Positions 27,503-42,394 of a stretch of DNA of 64,000 nt are shown here, one piece after another. Every line of letters starts with the position of its first letter. Position 1 is the stretch's first letter. Location of the stretch: the NCBI RefSeq assembly GCF_000422505.1, contig NZ_AULX01000023.1, positions 1-64,000 of the forward strand. Direction: 5' to 3'. A program made the translations under genes and the position numbers. The stretch is from Paenibacillus pinihumi DSM 23905 = JCM 16419. GTDB lineage: Bacteria > Bacillota > Bacilli > Paenibacillales > Paenibacillaceae. Below the pieces are notes generated by a model that had not been told where the DNA came from, made no database searches, and was given only the letters and a program-made list of their open reading frames with translations.

Positions 27503-27717
27503 ATGGGAAAGTAATCGTCCGCAGCCTTATTCCCGACCTTTTAGACGAGCGCGGGTGGTCGCAGCGGGATCTCGCAATTAAAGCGGACGTGAACGAAAAG
27601 ACTCTGTCCAGATTTACGCGAGACTATTCCAAAGACATGCCGCTGCGTATCGCTATCCCTGTTTCGGATGCGCTTGGAGTCCACCCACGTGACCTCGTCT
27701 TATGGGCCGATGAATAA
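27503..27717 (+). pseudogene. XRE-family regulator interrupted by -1 frame change at codon 3
   Basis: GGAGG and a 7-nt spacer lead to ATG 27503, but the frame stops at once (ATG GGA AAG TAA). A long open frame with XRE sequence (SLIPDLLDERGWSQRDLAIK, then NEKTLSRFTRDYSKDMPLRI, ending HPRDLVLW) begins at 27505 in the -1 frame. GGGAAAG at 27505-27511 is a canonical X-XXY-YYZ slippery heptamer placed exactly where the shift is needed. Either translation slips to give a 71-aa repressor, or one A was lost from an A4 run. A terminator follows directly. Confidence 0.6.
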
Positions 27718-27794: not shown

Positions 27795-27909
27795 TTCCAA
27801 TTTAAGTTGTCAAGGTAAATTCACTGAATTGGAATCGTGCAGACTGCTTATCGTAATAAGTGGTATAATTATCTATTACTATTAAACCACAATTTACCTA
27901 ATCAGTCTT
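27795..27909. promoter_or_regulatory. structured region downstream of the agr cassette
   Basis: TTCCAAT/ATTGGAA inverted repeat (27795-27801, 27828-27834), AGACTG/CAGTCT repeat (27841-27846, 27904-27909) and a rightward extended -10 promoter TGGTATAAT (27861-27869). A leftward TTGACA is also inside the first repeat. The region separates the LytTR gene from the XRE gene and is a candidate target or terminator zone of the quorum-sensing system. Confidence 0.4.
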
Positions 27910-27923
27910 GCATTTTCCGGTAT

Positions 27924-28304
27924 TCAGGATAAACCATTTAATATATTAAATAGAACTTGACTTTCTCGCAAATAGATGCTTTCCGGTACGTTTGACCGGA
28001 ACGGTTTGGATACCGGCACCTTCCGTACGCCCTCCCCGAAATCAATCAAATGATGCTTCGGATCGTACGATACCGCCTTCGCCATGTTCACCAAATAGCC
28101 GCGCTCCACCTTTACGTAGCCGAGTTTCTCTGCGTATCTCTGTTGCTCCTCCAGCGTAGAAATCTGTTTGAACTGGCCTTCCTGCGTCTGAAAATGCAGT
28201 ATCCCGTCGTATACACAAACGTATAATACGTCCTCCACCTCATCAATCTCGACCAATTCGAACTCTGTCCGGCTTATCTTTTTAACAACAGTAATTTTCG
28301 TCAT
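27924..28304 (-). CDS. LytTR DNA-binding regulator without receiver domain
   Basis: 126 aa, ATG 28304 in a TAATG overlap with the AgrD gene, SD AAGGAGG. The chain is a LytTR domain throughout: EDVLYVCVYDGILHFQTQEG, then LGYVKVERGYLVNMAKAVSY, then VRKVPVSKPFRSNV, the last matching the vS-r-f segment. AgrA and ComE carry a receiver domain before LytTR; here it is missing, so phosphorylation control is not possible in the usual way. It is likely controlled by the membrane protein in the same operon, as in LytTR regulatory systems with a membrane inhibitor. Confidence 0.85.
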   Translation of the reverse strand: MTKITVVKKISRTEFELVEIDEVEDVLYVCVYDGILHFQTQEGQFKQISTLEEQQRYAEKLGYVKVERGYLVNMAKAVSYDPKHHLIDFGEGVRKVPVSKPFRSNVPESIYLRESQVLFNILNGLS

Positions 28305-28441
28305 TAGTCCTCCTTTTCCGGACCTCTCAACTCCGCCGGAATCTCTGGTTTATGGATAAATACATACGACCCCATCAGCACAAACAACGATGACACCCCG
28401 ATTAAAGCTGCGGCAACTACTTTATAAAACTTCTTCTTCAT
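28304..28441 (-). CDS. agrD: AgrD-like cyclic lactone autoinducer precursor
   Basis: 45 aa. ATG 28441 overlaps the agrB stop (ATGA), and the stop overlaps the LytTR start. It has the three parts of AgrD: an amphipathic basic N-terminus (KKKFYKVVAAALIGVSSLF), a core and the recognition tail HKPEIPAELR followed by charged residues. Aligned with staphylococcal DEVEVPKELT, the tail places the mature C-terminus at Ile29 and the ring residue at Ser25, so the pheromone would be a Ser-Tyr-Val-Phe-Ile lactone instead of a Cys thiolactone. Confidence 0.85.
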   Translation of the reverse strand: MKKKFYKVVAAALIGVSSLFVLMGSYVFIHKPEIPAELRGPEKED

Positions 28442-28962
28442 ATTTTACGCCTCTCTTTTCCTAGCGGTAATAGCACCGCTTGTATTATATATGTCATCGC
28501 CAGGACATCCGATAAGATTACGAAATTAACCGCCACGAGTCCGGTAGATACAATTTTGAGCAGCGGATAATACCGTTTTGGCATCCTAGCGTATTTGTCA
28601 TAGTTGGAAGGAGCGAAGAGGGCGAAAGAGATTACGGAAAGAATCGTCATAATTTTAATCGCAACGATAGAAAACGCTAGATGCGGAAGTATCGATAGCA
28701 ACACCGTAGATACGACGATACATAGGTATCCCGCTTTTAGATGGTATCCTCCGGAAAGGTATCGGATCACTCCGAACGAGACGATTGCCAGCGCCGCCCG
28801 CCCGAACTCTCCCGTTATCATTCCGACCAACAACGCGCCACCCGCGATAGTCACCGTATTCACAATGATTTGCAGCGCGTAGTAGATCACCGCCGTCGAC
28901 GGGGCCGTTACGCCGTTGTCCTCGATACGCTGCCGGAGTCCGTCCGCATACTTATATAGCAT
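28438..28962 (-). CDS. agrB: AgrB-like pheromone-processing membrane protease
   Basis: 174 aa from ATG 28962 (AAAGGAG, 7 nt; the ATG at 28968 is too close to the SD). Six hydrophobic stretches. The catalytic signature is RYLSGGYHLKAGYLC: His74 and Cys81, seven apart as in AgrB. AgrB removes the AgrD tail and forms the lactone. It is directly upstream of agrD with an ATGA overlap and overlaps the sensor-like gene by 11 bp. All key residues are intact. Confidence 0.92.
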   Translation of the reverse strand: MLYKYADGLRQRIEDNGVTAPSTAVIYYALQIIVNTVTIAGGALLVGMITGEFGRAALAIVSFGVIRYLSGGYHLKAGYLCIVVSTVLLSILPHLAFSIVAIKIMTILSVISFALFAPSNYDKYARMPKRYYPLLKIVSTGLVAVNFVILSDVLAMTYIIQAVLLPLGKERRKI

Positions 28963-29620
28963 CCTCATACTCCTTTCGTAGGGCCACGTATAGGTAGGCC
29001 GGAATGGTCACGGCAAATACCGCACAGGCCGATATTACATAAGCATCGAAGTTATTGCCGAGCAAGTACGCGAGTGTGGCCGCAAGCATAACCGTAGCTA
29101 GAATTATTACGAGTATCAGCACGTTTGACCGGTTGAATCTCGTGTATGTACGGCGGGAGGTCGGCACAAAGTTAAACCCTCCGCCTAGTTGAACGATTGC
29201 GTAAGCGATGGCAATTTCGATAAGTGACGATAATACCTGCACGCCGGACCCGAGCAGCACGGAGCCTTTTACCACGTCGGCCGTTACCCCGCCGAAAAAC
29301 TGGAATGCGAGAAGCGCGAGTCCTTGAACGACGACCACTATCGCGAATCCGGCGAAATTCATTACGATAGAGTAAAAGAACGGTACTTGGAACAATATCC
29401 ATAGTACGATGATATAAAGCGCGAGTTGGATAAACGATGACATCTCACCGATTTGCGGAATGGCCCGCGTAAAGTATGAAACCTGGCTCATCATGAGCGA
29501 TACGGTTAAAACGGTGACCGCGAGCCGCTTCGTAATCCGAAACCGGAAAAGTGCGAACATGAAGGCGAAGACCGCCACGTACTCCAATACAGATGCTCCC
29601 GTAAATAATAAGTAATCCAC
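28952..29620 (-). CDS. AgrC-like membrane sensor lacking the kinase domain
   Basis: 222 aa, GTG 29620 (AGGGG SD). Six or seven transmembrane helices fill the protein (EYVAVFAFMFALFRF, LALYIIVLWILFQVPFFYSI, MNFAGFAIVVVVQGLALLAF, VLILVIILATVMLAATLAYL, AVFAVTIPAYLYVALRKEYE). This resembles the N-terminal receptor half of AgrC-type kinases and then stops, with no dimerisation or ATP-binding part. It starts 5 bp after the primase gene and overlaps agrB. It could bind the pheromone and hold or release the LytTR protein. The receptor role is inferred from context. Confidence 0.65.
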   Translation of the reverse strand: MDYLLFTGASVLEYVAVFAFMFALFRFRITKRLAVTVLTVSLMMSQVSYFTRAIPQIGEMSSFIQLALYIIVLWILFQVPFFYSIVMNFAGFAIVVVVQGLALLAFQFFGGVTADVVKGSVLLGSGVQVLSSLIEIAIAYAIVQLGGGFNFVPTSRRTYTRFNRSNVLILVIILATVMLAATLAYLLGNNFDAYVISACAVFAVTIPAYLYVALRKEYEDAI

Positions 29621-29625
29621 GTCGA

Positions 29626-30579
29626 TTACGCCCCTAACATTATTTTTATCTCTCTTAATGTATGGCGTCGGATTACGTATCGGGCGACCTGATCGACGCT
29701 ACTCTCGGTCGCGGCTTTATTTACGTCTTTATAGCGGCTGTTAACGGTCGCCACCGATACCTTTACGTCGCCGCGCAGCTCTTCGATTATAGCCCGCTGC
29801 CACTTTCGGCCCGCCGCATCGTTATCTCGGATCACAATTAATTCCTCGACTGGACTCCGGCGGATCAAATCGGCTTTGTACCGGTTAAACGCGGAACCCA
29901 TCGTAGCTACCGCAGGGAAGCCCGCCGTCATTACGGTCATGGCGTCAATCTCGGCTTCGACGATCACGGCCCGTTTACATTCTCTCCGGTAGATTACGTC
30001 GAGGCCGAATAATAACTCTCGGATCGGGCGGCCTCCCCGTTCGTACCAGAATAGTTTCGTATCGACCCTCCGGTATTTCACGTTAGCTAATGTCCCATCG
30101 CCGCTAAATATCGGGATAGTAACTGCTTTACGTGATTTATCGTAACCAATCCGGCACAATCGCTGTACGGCTTCGGATATCTTCCGACCGCCAAGATACG
30201 GTGACCGGAATTTGAATGGGTCCAATATCGAAATGTCCAGCGGCTTGAATACGGTGGCTTCGGTCGATAACTTTGGTATCCGCAGCGCCGGTAAATCAGA
30301 TCCCGACTCATCCTCGCCGTACTTTAACCGGAGATATTCGCCAGCCTCATCGTATCCAATCCCGTTGAGCCTGGCGATAAGCTCCGTGAGTGCCCCGGTT
30401 TCGCCCGTACCTCTGTCGCCCCAATATCCAGCCCGCGCGGTCGCCGTGTCCTCGTAATATATGTAAAAGGACGGGTCGTCATCGCGGCGAAACGGGGAGC
30501 ATGCGAGCAGGTACGAGGCAGTCCAGGTTGCACGGTGCCATTCGTAGGCTTCGAGTTCGGCGCGGACGTCTACGTTCAA
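29626..30579 (-). CDS. Toprim-domain DNA primase
   Basis: 317 aa, TTG 30579 with GGAG 9 nt upstream. The N-terminus (CSPFRRDDDPSFYIYY, YWGDRGTGETGAL) is a reduced version of the DnaG/phage primase zinc domain with fewer Cys. The Toprim domain is at about 200-265: AVIVEAEIDAMTVMTAGFPA (Glu) and VIRDNDAAGRKW (Asp-x-Asp). It makes RNA primers with the DnaB-like helicase encoded just upstream. It is in one operon with the XRE gene before it and the agr genes after it. Confidence 0.85.
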   Translation of the reverse strand: MNVDVRAELEAYEWHRATWTASYLLACSPFRRDDDPSFYIYYEDTATARAGYWGDRGTGETGALTELIARLNGIGYDEAGEYLRLKYGEDESGSDLPALRIPKLSTEATVFKPLDISILDPFKFRSPYLGGRKISEAVQRLCRIGYDKSRKAVTIPIFSGDGTLANVKYRRVDTKLFWYERGGRPIRELLFGLDVIYRRECKRAVIVEAEIDAMTVMTAGFPAVATMGSAFNRYKADLIRRSPVEELIVIRDNDAAGRKWQRAIIEELRGDVKVSVATVNSRYKDVNKAATESSVDQVARYVIRRHTLREIKIMLGA

Positions 30580-30585
30580 AGGCGA

Positions 30586-31017
30586 TCACTCCTCTTTGTT
30601 TAGTTTTAAGCGGCGTAACCTAACGTTATAGAAATCCTCAAGTTCTGAAGACAACGTCTCGACTTCGGAGTAAGTTAGTGTTGGCTCGCTAGCAAAAATC
30701 CAATCAGAAGTCACCTTTTTAAAATCATCACGAGTCTCTTTCTCTGCCACATAACTAGCTCTTGCTTCTTTTACTGATTCCGAGTAGAAATTAAGTAAAA
30801 TATAATATTCAAGAACGTGCTTATTAACAATATCATGCACTTCTTCTTCGGGGAGTCTCATCGCTTTTAGAAGTTTCAAAAATGTATCATTAGTAAGCTC
30901 ACTATCTCCCCGCTCAATCTTGCTTATCTGCGAAGGACTGATTCCTGACAAAGAGGACAGTTCATTAAGGGTTAGTCCTCTCTGCTTTCTTTTTTCTCTG
31001 ATTAATTCTCCTGTCAT
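30586..31017 (-). CDS. XRE-family transcriptional regulator
   Basis: 143 aa, ATG 31017 with GGAGG; the frame is open to 31065. The N-terminal XRE domain (GELIREKRKQRGLTLNELSS, GISPSQISKIERGDSELTND) is complete. A helical C-terminal part (ILLNFYSESVKEARASYVAE) may dimerise. It has its own near-consensus promoter and leads the operon XRE-primase-agr. AT-rich compared with the helicase upstream. Confidence 0.85.
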   Translation of the reverse strand: MTGELIREKRKQRGLTLNELSSLSGISPSQISKIERGDSELTNDTFLKLLKAMRLPEEEVHDIVNKHVLEYYILLNFYSESVKEARASYVAEKETRDDFKKVTSDWIFASEPTLTYSEVETLSSELEDFYNVRLRRLKLNKEE

Positions 31018-31056
31018 TTTATCCTCCAAAGAAACTATTTTATTTCTTATGAGGAT

Positions 31057-31085
31057 ATAATACATCTATTTTTATCGTTTGTAAA
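31057..31085 (-). promoter_or_regulatory. promoter of the XRE-primase-agr operon
   Basis: Read leftwards TTTACA (31085-31080), 17 bp, TATTAT (31062-31057), 40 bp before the XRE ATG. Confidence 0.75.
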
Positions 31086-31113: not shown

Positions 31114-32469
31114 TTAAAAAATCCCAACAAATTGACCCGTCTCAGCCCCGCCAGTATCCACCAACTCCCGTACAATCCCGTAATTAGGAAGATAAATCAG
31201 CTCGACACGAGTATCCTCACCGCCAGACCTTCCCTTCCCAAGTTCAATGATCCCGCGGCCTTCTTCGTTAATGGTATCAATCCCAAACGTTACGGCTGCG
31301 TCCTCAAGTACAGCTTTCGTCTTCTTGATCTCGGCACGTTTCGGCGGTTTCAGCTCCCGGACTCCATCATCTCCCTTTTCGGCCGCATTTTCGTCAGCCT
31401 GAGTTATCACGTGAATGACTGAACCGGTCTTACCGGCAAGCTTACGGATACGCTTACTCGTTGCAGCCACATCGCCGCCCGCAGTCTTAGACGTATTGGA
31501 CTCAAACTCCATATAGTAAATCGGATCGATTACGACGACATCTGCCTTTGTTTCGAGAATATCCGCCTCAAGCTGTCTTATCGAGTTGTCCGAAAAGTCC
31601 GCTTCGTCGATCGCCCGAAGGATAATCCGCCCAGGTATTACGTCATTCAACGTAGTCACGAACTCCTCCAACCCCCGTTCAAAATCCTCTGGAAGGCGGC
31701 CCATAAGCATCGCCAGGTTATCGAAGCCCGCCGTATAATCAACGCCTGCAACGGTAGCCGTAGCAACGCCGCTCCGTGCGGAGATGGACGAATAAGCCCG
31801 CGCCATCCATTCAAATGTAGACATCTCCAGCGCCCAAATTAGTACGACCGCGCCATGGAAAGCGGATTCAATCGCCTCTTCCATTGTAATCACTGACTTA
31901 CCTCGTCCCGGCCTCGCATACCACGTATACATATTTCCGGAGAGGTATCCGCCAGTCTTAACGTTAATGGTCGGAAATTTTGACGGCCATATTTTAAATG
32001 ATCGGCCTTCTTTACGGGAACGGTACTCGGTCATGAAACGTTCCCCGGATAAGGTTATATCGTTCCCGATAGGAACATTCGTTCTTACTCCGATTTTAAT
32101 ACTTTCAAGCCGATCCTGCAACGACGAAATTAATTCGTCCGCCCGCATCGTCTCATACATACCGCCGACCTCTTTATTAATCAACTCCGCAAACTGCCGC
32201 TTACCATACGAATCCTTTAGCTCGCGGGCCAGAAACGTAAACTCGTCAGTCACGTCCGGGATGTACATTACGTCCGGATTTTCGGCTGCAAATGTGGCGT
32301 AAGATGGCGTGCGGCCCCCGTTTGTATCTGCGTAACCAAAAACGTAATCGACTGCGCTTTTTTCCGCTGCGGTCACGAAATGTTCCCGCGTAATTCCGCA
32401 ACGGGTGAATGCGGAAAGGTCGCCGGAGTCGATAACCTTACTCAAAAACTGTTGCCCGTAACTGGACAT
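31114..32469 (-). CDS. DnaB-like replicative helicase
   Basis: 451 aa; ATG 32469 is chosen for its GGAGG SD (9 nt). The N-terminal 130 residues are helical (DnaB N-domain type). The RecA-like core has Walker A ARPGRGKS, ALEMSTFEWMARAYSSISAR (H1a/H2 region), Walker B VVVIDPIYYME and VIHVITQADENAAE (H3, with Gln), then LEDAAVTFGIDT. It unwinds DNA at the phage fork, loaded by the DnaC-like protein encoded upstream. Confidence 0.9.
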   Translation of the reverse strand: MSSYGQQFLSKVIDSGDLSAFTRCGITREHFVTAAEKSAVDYVFGYADTNGGRTPSYATFAAENPDVMYIPDVTDEFTFLARELKDSYGKRQFAELINKEVGGMYETMRADELISSLQDRLESIKIGVRTNVPIGNDITLSGERFMTEYRSRKEGRSFKIWPSKFPTINVKTGGYLSGNMYTWYARPGRGKSVITMEEAIESAFHGAVVLIWALEMSTFEWMARAYSSISARSGVATATVAGVDYTAGFDNLAMLMGRLPEDFERGLEEFVTTLNDVIPGRIILRAIDEADFSDNSIRQLEADILETKADVVVIDPIYYMEFESNTSKTAGGDVAATSKRIRKLAGKTGSVIHVITQADENAAEKGDDGVRELKPPKRAEIKKTKAVLEDAAVTFGIDTINEEGRGIIELGKGRSGGEDTRVELIYLPNYGIVRELVDTGGAETGQFVGIF

Positions 32470-32724
32470 TGTTTCTTCACCTCCGTAGTTTACTTTAGCT
32501 ATGCCAAATCTTTCAAACCGCAAATTCGGTGATTTTCGTTTATTCTGCTGGTGAAGTTAATATAAATGATTGATTGTCGAAGTATGTCGAATCTTTACAT
32601 TATGTCCATATAGTATTATTATTTCCGCAAAGTCCATATATTTCGCTTGTCAAGTACGTGCGTCGAGTCTGTGGATGAAATTCCGAACTTCGTAAATCTC
32701 CCGAATACTCCCGTTTTCTCACGT
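32470..32724 (-). promoter_or_regulatory. control region of the helicase gene with short direct repeats
   Basis: No gene seen. TGTCGAA is repeated at 32575-32581 and 32585-32591 (10-bp period), and GTCCATATA at 32604-32612 and 32632-32640. A leftward -10-like TATATT follows the first pair. The repeats may be activator or initiator sites. Confidence 0.4.
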
Positions 32725-33498
32725 TTAAACTTTTCGCATCCCGCGGTGACTCTCGCCCTTGAACGTGAACTCCATACAGAGGTCACGTATCCGATCCGCG
32801 AGCCGCCGCTCACCGAAAACCGTATGCAGCTCATCCAACGGAACGTTGCTCGTATACACCGTAGGAAGCCCCGCCGTCACCCTCGCATTGATTACGGAAT
32901 GCAGATCAGCCCGGAATCCCTCCGTCGGCTCCCGGACGCCGATATCGTCCAACACAGCGAATGGAACGGTCATTGCTCGTTGTCTCGCGGCATAGTAACG
33001 GGCGGCAGCAGGCTCCGCGATATGCTCCGGTACCCGCGGCCGGTTGAACTCGTTATAATCCGTCTGCCAACCGTTGATATCAAGAAAGTACGCTGGCCGC
33101 TCGACAGGTTGCTGTCCTCGGCGGAGAGAACCTACGTAATGGACTGTGATCCATTCGGAGAGCAGCGCGGCCGCCGTCGTTGTTTTACCGGTTCCTGGCG
33201 TGCGGCTATACAGGTATAACGACTTGATCGGCTCGGGCTTTGTTTCGTCACCGAATTGCCGCGTGAAAGTCCGCACGTATACTGATAGGCTGCCATATAT
33301 CTCGGACTGCTCCGTGCGTGCCGGGCTATTGTCTAACGTAACCAGCAGATACGCCGCCGGTAAATTCCCGTTCCCGATCCGGCCGCCCTCTCCGTTATGC
33401 CCGTGCATGGCGATATACGAGCCGCAGAGCGTAGAACATTTCGGGCCTTCCCGTAGTGTACAGAGCCGAGCCAGAACGCATTTATCCGCATGACTCAA
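32725..33498 (-). CDS. DnaC/DnaI-like helicase loader ATPase
   Basis: 257 aa, TTG 33498 (GGGAGG SD) overlapping the upstream TGA. The N-terminus has Cys pairs (CVLARLCTLREGPKCSTLCG) suggesting a zinc-binding site. The AAA+ core holds Walker A RTPGTGKTTTA, Walker B FAVLDDIGVREP, sensor I TVYTSNVP and the arginine finger area GERRLADRI. It resembles IstB/DnaC-type ATPases that deliver DnaB-like helicases. Confidence 0.85.
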   Translation of the reverse strand: MSHADKCVLARLCTLREGPKCSTLCGSYIAMHGHNGEGGRIGNGNLPAAYLLVTLDNSPARTEQSEIYGSLSVYVRTFTRQFGDETKPEPIKSLYLYSRTPGTGKTTTAAALLSEWITVHYVGSLRRGQQPVERPAYFLDINGWQTDYNEFNRPRVPEHIAEPAAARYYAARQRAMTVPFAVLDDIGVREPTEGFRADLHSVINARVTAGLPTVYTSNVPLDELHTVFGERRLADRIRDLCMEFTFKGESHRGMRKV

Positions 33499-40768: not shown

Positions 40769-41800
40769 TTAGTGGCGTTTTGCACCACGAACTAAACTAT
40801 TTACAGGCGTAAAATTATCGTGACTTGCCCGCATCTCTTTTGTATCCATTTGAATATACCTACGCAATGTTCGAATATCCTTCCATCCACCGAGCTTTTG
40901 TAATGTAAATGGATCGCAGCCATTCAATATCATGTTCTTTGCCCAAGTATGCCTATACACGTGTGCCGTATTTTTCTTCTCAACAACTCCAGCCCTCTCA
41001 GCATGGTGTTTCAATCGTTTGTTGAAGTGGTTAGCTTTTATTGGCTCTCCGTTTACGGACAAGAATAGTTTGTCTACAGTAAAGTGTTGTTTATTCTCAC
41101 CAATTAACTGTAGTAACAGCTTGACCGAGTGTGAGGATATAGGGACAAGTCTCGGCTTCCGGTTCTTGTTCCGTTCGCCCGGTAATTCGATGAACCGAGA
41201 TTGAAAATCGACGTCGCTCGGACGTAGACTTAATAATTCGGAAATACGTAATCCAGAATCGAGCAGCAGGACGATTGCAACATAATCACGAAAGCCAACG
41301 AAGTCTCTTTGATTGGGCTGTGCTAATATCGATTTAACTTCGTCGTCCGTTAAGCAATTCGTTAAATCCACATCTTGGCGTAAGAGTTTTACGCCAGCAA
41401 TCGGATTCTCTCCAATCAATCCGTCCCGTTCAAGTTGGTTGAAAACCGCCTTGAGAACCCGGAGCCGAATGTTAACTGTTGTGTCAGACAGCCCCACACC
41501 GTGATCCTTTTTATTATTGTACTTGTGATTCTCGTATCTTCGCGCTTCGTATTTCATCCATGCAATGTGATCACGGAATATTGCCGGAGAGAGTTCGTGA
41601 ACCATTGTGATATTTGGATGAAATTTACGTAACCAGTCCGTGAAATAAATAAAGTCCTTGACATAATCATTAATCGTACGTTCACGAAGCCCCTCAGCCT
41701 TTTTCGTGGCAACAACCATATCTAACGCTTCTTGTAGCGTTAATTCCGGAAAATCAATTCGGGTAATTTGAATCTTCCTCTTACGTTTTGCTAAAGCCAA
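40769..41800 (-). CDS. int: tyrosine recombinase (phage integrase)
   Basis: 343 aa, TTG 41800 with GGAGG 8 nt upstream. The SAM-like N-terminal domain covers residues 20-140. The catalytic domain shows Arg in LLDSGLRISELLSLRPSDVD, the Lys beta-hairpin, His-x-x-Arg in HVYRHTWAKNMIL, the GGW motif in LQKLGGWKD and the nucleophile Tyr in TLRRYIQMD. It catalyses integration and, with an excisionase, excision. It is the last phage gene before the erpA-like host gene. Its SD is part of a 46-bp hairpin (41806-41851). Confidence 0.95.
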   Translation of the reverse strand: MALAKRKRKIQITRIDFPELTLQEALDMVVATKKAEGLRERTINDYVKDFIYFTDWLRKFHPNITMVHELSPAIFRDHIAWMKYEARRYENHKYNNKKDHGVGLSDTTVNIRLRVLKAVFNQLERDGLIGENPIAGVKLLRQDVDLTNCLTDDEVKSILAQPNQRDFVGFRDYVAIVLLLDSGLRISELLSLRPSDVDFQSRFIELPGERNKNRKPRLVPISSHSVKLLLQLIGENKQHFTVDKLFLSVNGEPIKANHFNKRLKHHAERAGVVEKKNTAHVYRHTWAKNMILNGCDPFTLQKLGGWKDIRTLRRYIQMDTKEMRASHDNFTPVNSLVRGAKRH

Positions 41801-41805
41801 ATAAA

Positions 41806-41851
41806 ACGCCTCCTAACGGTTATCTGTACGAGACAGATCGTTAAGAGGCGT
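41806..41851 (-). terminator. hairpin that pairs the integrase SD and can terminate transcription
   Basis: ACGCCTC-TTAACG pairs with CGTTA-GGAGGCGT around an inner ATCTGT/ACAGAT stem. Read leftwards it is followed by TTTTATTT and then the integrase TTG. The 3' arm contains the SD. RNA arriving from erpA would fold it, ending transcription or hiding the SD. Confidence 0.7.
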
Positions 41852-41873
41852 AATTAGCAACCCATAAACGGAC

Positions 41874-42031
41874 ATTTAGGGATTGTTATTATACATTTTC
41901 GGGATTGATAACGCTCAAAAATCCGTTGTAATTATCAACCCTACACCGTCAATGCCAACGTTAAGCAATCCGATATAAATCACCGTGAAAACCACCGTTG
42001 AAAATCCCGAAATCCCTTGCGGTGACTGGAA
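41874..42031. other. probable attachment-site region with integrase arm-type repeats
   Basis: Related repeats AGGGATTGTTATTA (41878-41891), CGGGATTGATAACG (41900-41913) and, inverted, AGGGTTGATAAT (41942-41931) look like arm sites. AAATCCCGAAATCCC at 42002-42016 may add more. The crossover core is probably near the 3' end of erpA (about 42,015-42,060), but the other prophage end is not in the window, so it cannot be defined. Confidence 0.45.
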
Positions 42032-42394
42032 TCAGCACTCGCCCGCTTCGCTCGGTTTGCCCGCATCGGTAGCTGTTCTGAAGCTGGAGCCGCAGCCGCA
42101 GGTAGCGGTTGCGTTCGGATTCTCGATTGTGAATCCTCCGCCCATTGCCGATTCCTTGAAATCAATCTGCAAGCCGTTCAGATATTTCAGGCTATCTTCA
42201 TCCACGACCACCTTCAGGCCTTCAATGGACAGTTCTTTATCATTATCGTGCTGCTCGTCATCGAATCCCATTCCATAGGAAAATCCGGAGCAGCCGCCTT
42301 CTTTTACACCAACACGCAGAAACAGACCTGGCGTTTCTTCCTCCAGCAGCATATCTTTAATTCTTGCTGTTGCAGCTGAGCTGATTTCAATCAT
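42032..42394 (-). CDS. erpA: HesB/IscA-type iron-sulfur carrier (ErpA/YutM-like)
   Basis: 120 aa, ATG 42394 (AGGAGGG). EGGCSGFSYGMGFDD holds the first ligand Cys and CGCGSSF the C-terminal Cys pair, the A-type carrier signature. It passes iron-sulfur clusters to apoproteins. The tail after SSFRTATDAGKP may have been reconstituted by phage integration, since the phage ends about 180 bp downstream. It is the first clear host gene, near yutJ, yuzB and yutI homologues as in Bacillus. Confidence 0.9.
   Translation of the reverse strand: MIEISSAATARIKDMLLEEETPGLFLRVGVKEGGCSGFSYGMGFDDEQHDNDKELSIEGLKVVVDEDSLKYLNGLQIDFKESAMGGGFTIENPNATATCGCGSSFRTATDAGKPSEAGEC

Follow-up and report, generated by a model that had tools for sequence, protein, structure and literature searches.

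The agr system, the textbook case of peptide quorum sensing, is taught as a pathway that works through a kinase, and canonical agr peptides have a five-residue ring. In phages, the agr3 locus of the Clostridioides difficile phage phiCDHM1 encodes an AgrC with an HATPase domain and no response regulator, according to the passages cited here (PMC3901668). The cited passages of the same paper (Hargreaves et al., 2014; PMC3901668) also report that the phages Davies, Emery, and Abouo have AgrB and AgrD together with membrane proteins that lack a kinase, and include a guess that the latter could be homologous to AgrC. For three phages, a kinase-less agr cassette has thus been on record since 2014; beyond that guess, these passages mention neither a LytTR gene nor AgrC-sensor homology. 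A separate group, the LytTR regulatory systems (LRS), offers a precedent for control of a LytTR protein without receiver by a membrane protein, which in LRS inhibits the regulator (PMC6193735). In the open-licence literature, we found no description of the LytTR partner, of AgrC-sensor homology, of dominance in Paenibacillaceae, or of pseudokinase loci. Here, we analyze a 64,000-nucleotide stretch of the Paenibacillus pinihumi DSM 23905 genome (positions 1 to 64,000 of contig NZ_AULX01000023.1, hereafter the window), which contains a cassette of this kind.

Gene content and prophage setting of the cassette

Positions 27924 to 29620 of the window (minus strand) contain four intact, tightly packed genes that encode a seven-transmembrane (7-TM) protein, AgrB, AgrD, and a receiver-less LytTR regulator (Table 1). 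The minus-strand gene order is loader, helicase, XRE, primase, TM, AgrB, AgrD, LytTR. The primase gene lies 6 nt past the XRE gene, the TM gene starts 5 nt past the primase stop, and the three junctions inside the cassette overlap by 11 to 17, 4, and 1 nt. The matches of AgrB, AgrD, and LytTR all exceed their curated cutoffs (23 bits for PF04647, 19 bits for TIGR04223, and 22.6 bits for PF04397). The Pfam search found no Response_reg domain in the LytTR protein and neither HATPase nor HisKA in the TM protein, for which Pfam has no matching family, and the LytTR family profile matches the LytTR chains of AgrA and ComE in the PDB. For AgrB, a second ATG at position 28962 has a better-spaced Shine-Dalgarno sequence and is the more likely start. 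The His and Cys of the AgrB GGYH...C motif are invariant across all aligned homologues. The initial annotation had reported four overlapping genes that include an AgrB with intact His74 and Cys81, an AgrD-type precursor, and a LytTR regulator; all are present and intact, and the residue numbers are right when counted from 28962. PHROGs families exist for three of the four genes (phrog_15604, phrog_10353, and phrog_15081), none of them named as agr.

Table 1. Positions of the cassette, its operon, and associated features in the window
Feature	Coordinates	Strand	Remarks
Conserved noncoding block	27815..27923	.	Directly after lytTR; inverted GTGGTATAAT/ATTAAACCAC arms
LytTR DNA-binding regulator	27924..28304	-	126 aa, without receiver domain; PF04397, 29.1 bits
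AgrD precursor	28304..28441	-	45 aa; TIGR04223, 23 bits
Predicted peptide ring	within AgrD		Predicted to begin at Ser of ...GSYVFIHKPEIPAEL; putative Ser lactone rather than Cys thiolactone
AgrB	28438..28968	-	Predicted AgrD-processing membrane peptidase; PF04647, 58.3 bits; phrog_10353
7-TM protein	28952..29620	-	GTG start, 222 aa; AgrC-type sensor domain, predicted peptide receptor; phrog_15604
Phage primase (Toprim)	29626..30579	-	phrog_47, E 4.8e-36; same operon as cassette
XRE regulator	30586..31065	-	PF01381; within operon
DnaB-like replicative helicase	31114..32523	-	phrog_19, E 2e-48; same operon
DnaC-like helicase loader	32725..33498	-	phrog_50; same operon
Tyrosine integrase	40769..41800	-	PF00589, phrog_1; marks prophage right end, host genes beyond

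The cassette is surrounded by genes of a phage early region (polymerase, ribonucleotide reductase, methylase, helicase, and primase). Because the window and its contig share their first base, the prophage is incomplete at its left end. A sister prophage (genome G003, matching a P. roseus contig; locus L011) is collinear with the first 40.8 kb of the window, with about 71 to 100% identity within aligned blocks, and extends into terminase, capsid, scaffold, and tape-measure genes. Between these two prophages, dN/dS is 0.073 for TM, 0.13 for AgrB, 0.085 for AgrD, and 0.062 for LytTR, at dS values ranging from 0.35 to 1.75; the comparison genes of the same pair give 0.092 (primase) and 0.106 (loader). 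All four cassette genes are under strong purifying selection (dN/dS of 0.06 to 0.13).

These values bear on whether the cassette is a decaying, nonworking remnant of a captured host cassette, an outcome that the initial annotation had itself raised and that we regard as extremely improbable. Prophages do collect host genes, and the prophage in the window is cut at the contig start, but the four frames are intact, their dN/dS values resemble that of the primase, and an independent metagenomic phage contig (L006) has the loader, helicase, XRE, and primase genes followed by the four cassette genes in identical order, with cassette proteins that are 41 to 70% identical to those of the window. Based on the selection and on the order in L006, we conclude that the cassette is maintained and that, in this phage lineage, its location behind the primase is of long standing. 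The position behind an XRE regulator and the primase, as first reported, stands only in part: the cassette adjoins the primase in the operon, but the XRE gene is not a conserved part, since in P. roseus the corresponding slot of the prophage is filled by an unrelated gene of 115 aa. Together, these results support the view that an integrase-bearing prophage carries, within its replication operon, a complete agr-type signaling cassette that is under selection.

A Cro/XRE-like gene at 27503 to 27716 (plus strand) has a good Shine-Dalgarno sequence and an ATG but reads ATG GGA AAG TAA, and a 68-codon XRE frame resumes in -1 from the G GGA AAG heptamer, which is in slippery phase. A sequencing error is unlikely, because the P. 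roseus prophage has an identical start region though the proteins diverge. The gene is thus a candidate for a programmed -1 frameshift or a three-codon leader. Its homologue in L006 has an ordinary start.

Receptor homology and the predicted peptide

An hhalign comparison of the TM profile (50 members) with residues 1 to 217 of 11 AgrC-type proteins gave a match probability of 97% (E = 1.2e-10) that spans 158 columns and begins at the N terminus, while AgrB, the multipass control family, scored <1% against either profile. Direct profile searches matched ~410-aa sensors that adjoin agrB, over residues ~9 to 213 (E = 2e-13 to 2e-16). The AlphaFold model of the TM protein has seven long helices (pLDDT 93), and based on the positive-inside rule and our own reading of this model, its C terminus is predicted to be cytosolic, where AgrC carries the kinase. 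Judged by sequence homology, the 7-TM protein is an AgrC sensor domain minus the kinase. A structure search with the 7-TM model against the PDB and BFVD gave no significant match, which is to be expected if none of the solved structures is an AgrC sensor domain, and the TM and AgrB sequence profiles found no chain in the PDB.

Five of the ~410-aa sensors, from related Bacilli (L202, L203, L204, L207, and L209), have an N terminus like the 7-TM protein and a C-terminal half that is homologous to AgrC kinases (98.5%, E = 3e-15). In the alignment, these kinase halves are without the RHD histidine (the phosphoacceptor), the N-box, and the G-box. Leaving the direction of change aside, it is plausible from their sequences that such degenerate-kinase loci are intermediates between kinase-bearing and kinase-less agr. 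The response regulators found beside these sensors, where detected, retain both a receiver and a LytTR domain.

The AgrD precursor has the ring nucleophile and the PxxP-type C-terminal tail expected of agr. Among 80 aligned AgrD homologues, the ring position is Ser in 66, Cys in 7, and Lys in 7, with no other residue; since all three are nucleophiles, this supports the assignment of the position as the cyclizing nucleophile. By analogy with canonical peptides, the phage ring would be five residues long, SYVFI. The rings predicted at three host loci are SFLWG, SWLYI, and SPVAG, and the phage ring resembles SWLYI, the ring of locus L002, in residue-by-residue character. Given this likeness to the second host ring, private signaling and cross-talk are both conceivable. 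The phages Harrison, Davies, Emery, and Abouo have Lys at the ring position. Lys-type AgrD proteins, which are possible sources of lactam-ring autoinducers, occur in L007 to L010, L064, L066, and others (7 of the 80).

Distribution and mobility of kinase-less loci

The same host genome contains three further TM-AgrB-AgrD-LytTR loci, and all four of its AgrB loci are kinase-less. In a genus sample of eight genomes, the full four-gene set is present at 23 of 26 AgrB loci. Across the family, AgrB is present in 98 of 150 genomes; of 60 loci sampled, 40 carry the complete kinase-less set and 50 have TM with AgrB, including ten at which at least these two genes are present and one or more other elements were undetected. 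About 8 of the 60 look canonical, a share that is probably overstated because the 60 loci come mostly from the upper score list, where canonical ones sit; one of them (L134) was verified to have a GHKL kinase and a receiver-LytTR regulator. The kinase-less architecture is therefore the commonest agr type in the family Paenibacillaceae, and what the initial annotation had presented as a peculiarity of this cassette, the lack of kinase and receiver, is instead the family norm. Other Bacilli have chiefly kinase loci, and two further families (f22 and f19) also hold kinase-less ones.

This distribution also bears on whether the cassette belongs to a cross-talking two-component system, in which the 7-TM protein enlists a kinase of the host, or a host AgrC reads the peptide, and the phage LytTR is an accessory. 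Some family members have canonical kinase-bearing loci (L134 to L140), and a 2025 review considers that phage agr sets without AgrA may use host AgrA (PMC11945551). However, none of the four AgrB loci of this genome has a kinase, the phage LytTR has no receiver to phosphorylate, and the degenerate-kinase loci suggest that phosphotransfer has been lost. We consider this arrangement improbable.

The gene order that the initial annotation had proposed to seek in Paenibacillus prophages was found in the P. roseus prophage and in further backbones: at least six phage or prophage backbones share it, as do chromosomes of the family, which excludes a chance arrangement. The cassette in the window has the four-gene order of the group as we define it here, kinase-less agr of Paenibacillaceae, other Bacilli, and phages. 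Among the phages with the four-gene cassette are the Brevibacillus phages Davies, Emery, and Abouo and the P. larvae phages Harrison and Paisley. A related AgrB is also encoded in five Paenibacillus records of plasmids or megaplasmids. In Davies, Abouo, and Emery, genes annotated as integrase or repressor lie near the cassette, and other IMG/VR contigs, by open reading frame reading only, have it beside serine or tyrosine recombinases, XRE repressors, and YolD-like genes. Placement in a replication operon is the exception.

In a tree of TM plus AgrB, phage and chromosomal copies are intermixed, and a single clade of the seven best-supported phage cassettes is rejected (AU p = 2e-5). Well-supported branches force nine label changes, a rough count because some "chromosomal" copies may sit in unrecognized prophages. 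This intermixing indicates that the module has moved repeatedly. It would also fit a cassette that is cargo directed at the host, with a LytTR that acts on host genes or a phage peptide that talks to or blocks the host's three cassettes, as would the presence of those three same-kind cassettes and the likeness of SYVFI to the L002 ring. On the other hand, the cassette lies in a replication operon in which we saw no obvious promoter of its own, the phage LytTR is only 18 to 25% identical to the host LytTRs, and in several other phages the cassette adjoins an integrase or repressor, an arrangement that speaks in favor of a role in the phage. We judge host-directed cargo to be somewhat unlikely.

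Several loci depart from the simple form. L020, L030, L047, L008, L010, and L194 have two or three paralogous TM receptor genes in the cassette, and the chromosomal loci L013, L015, and L016 are orphan AgrB genes, with TM, AgrD, and LytTR undetected. We did not adopt L012 to L017 as prophage relics, as no phage genes were found beside them except at L017, where an upstream gene resembles (by eye) the gene in the P. roseus slot. The prophage in the window adjoins an iscA-like gene (40769-42394 region), and its P. roseus sister lies beside spo0A/spoIVB/recN (genes named by eye); the closest chromosomal cassettes (L014 to L016 and L012) are within a few kb of those same genes in other species, by coincidence or shared history. 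Locus L098 was grouped with the window region 40769-42394, L012, and L014 to L016 in this observation on integration sites.

The proposed circuit and its comparison with known systems

Searches for LytTR operators were made at several scales. The window contains 4 AgrA-like repeats, which is at chance level (3.2 expected), and lag analysis of the 260 nt upstream of the TM gene at chromosomal loci detected no excess of direct repeats at lags of 12 to 39; LytTR direct-repeat sequences are known to diverge. The nine cassettes together diverge too far in alignment for pattern scans, and therefore closer subsets were used. Footprints of these close groups have conserved blocks, one of which (L001 group) reads as a sigma-A-type promoter, and contain no common LytTR site. 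For most of its length, the conserved noncoding block directly after lytTR matches L011 at 90 to 100% identity, while lytTR itself is 77% identical. The region of this block has an unusually stable predicted fold (z = -5.2), and a related dyad was found in L006 (5928 to 6000). An Rfam search of the window between 24 and 34 kb gave no match.

We propose that AgrB would cleave and cyclize AgrD to yield a Ser-closed five-residue ring (core about S-Y-V-F-I), which would be exported and bound by the 7-TM protein, an AgrC sensor without a kinase. The receptor would then change its hold on LytTR in the manner of LRS, with no phosphorylation of a response regulator, and LytTR could act on phage promoters and perhaps on host promoters. 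The cassette would be coexpressed with the replication genes, and the peptide would thereby report the abundance of replicating or resident relatives. The proposal of the initial annotation that the prophage reads the density of related lysogens and adjusts replication, lysogeny, or host genes is a hypothesis. A host kinase could take part. That the four genes travel together, and that their order is kept across different phage backbones, supports such a circuit, and we think it probable that this temperate phage carries a complete, kinase-free agr-type peptide circuit whose receptor controls LytTR directly. More tentatively, and as a possibility rather than an expectation, there may be a kinase-less class of agr in which a free-standing AgrC sensor directly controls LytTR, which is the main type in Paenibacillaceae, probably arose via degenerate-kinase intermediates, and is repeatedly exchanged between phages and their hosts, with phages using it as a private channel for replication or lysogeny, a counterpart of arbitrium.

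A common agr type without kinase and receiver would be a different route for an extracellular peptide signal to reach DNA. The cassette would provide phages of several backbones with a peptide language in addition to arbitrium, from which it differs in chemistry, and it suggests a likely function for phage genes labeled only "membrane protein" or "peptidase" (phrog_15604 and phrog_15081). Since the host has systems of the same kind, it is directly testable whether phage and host engage in cross-talk, and at four genes and 1.7 kb the cassette is small enough that it could be rebuilt in a laboratory strain.

Arbitrium (AimR/AimP), which is also phage-encoded peptide signaling, is alike in function only and differs in the type of peptide and its processing as well as in receptor and regulator. 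As a candidate AimR, the XRE protein was rejected, since it scores 21.5 bits, in the HTH part only, versus the 70 required (NF038310). The LRS systems HdrRM and BrsRM likewise have a receiver-less LytTR and a kinase-less membrane protein in one operon. In LRS, however, the regulator gene comes first and the membrane protein is DUF3021 or DUF2154 in most, whereas here the order is reversed, the membrane protein has no Pfam family, the defining direct repeats (upstream of -35, about 12 bp apart) were not found, and an AgrBD module is added. Because the order and membrane-protein family do not match and the searches above found no such repeats, we treat the proposed working of the cassette as LRS-like and the cassette itself as distinct from LRS.

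Canonical agr is matched here in AgrB with its His and Cys, in AgrD, in the sensor domain of AgrC, and in the DNA-binding domain of AgrA, while the AgrC kinase and AgrA receiver have no counterpart, the ring residue is Ser instead of the usual Cys, and the receptor gene comes first and the regulator last. In phiCDHM1, agr genes are likewise found in a temperate phage; here, unlike in that phage, there is no kinase and a regulator is present. The closest cassettes, those of Davies, Emery, Abouo, Harrison, and Paisley, have the same genes in the same order and at near-equal sizes, with a ~222-aa membrane protein and a ~120-aa LytTR protein that is often annotated "peptidase." Protein identity to these phages is about 13 to 33%. 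Their cassettes lie near an integrase or repressor, and the AgrD ring residue of Davies/Harrison-type phages is Lys, whereas the cassette described here lies in a replication operon and has Ser.
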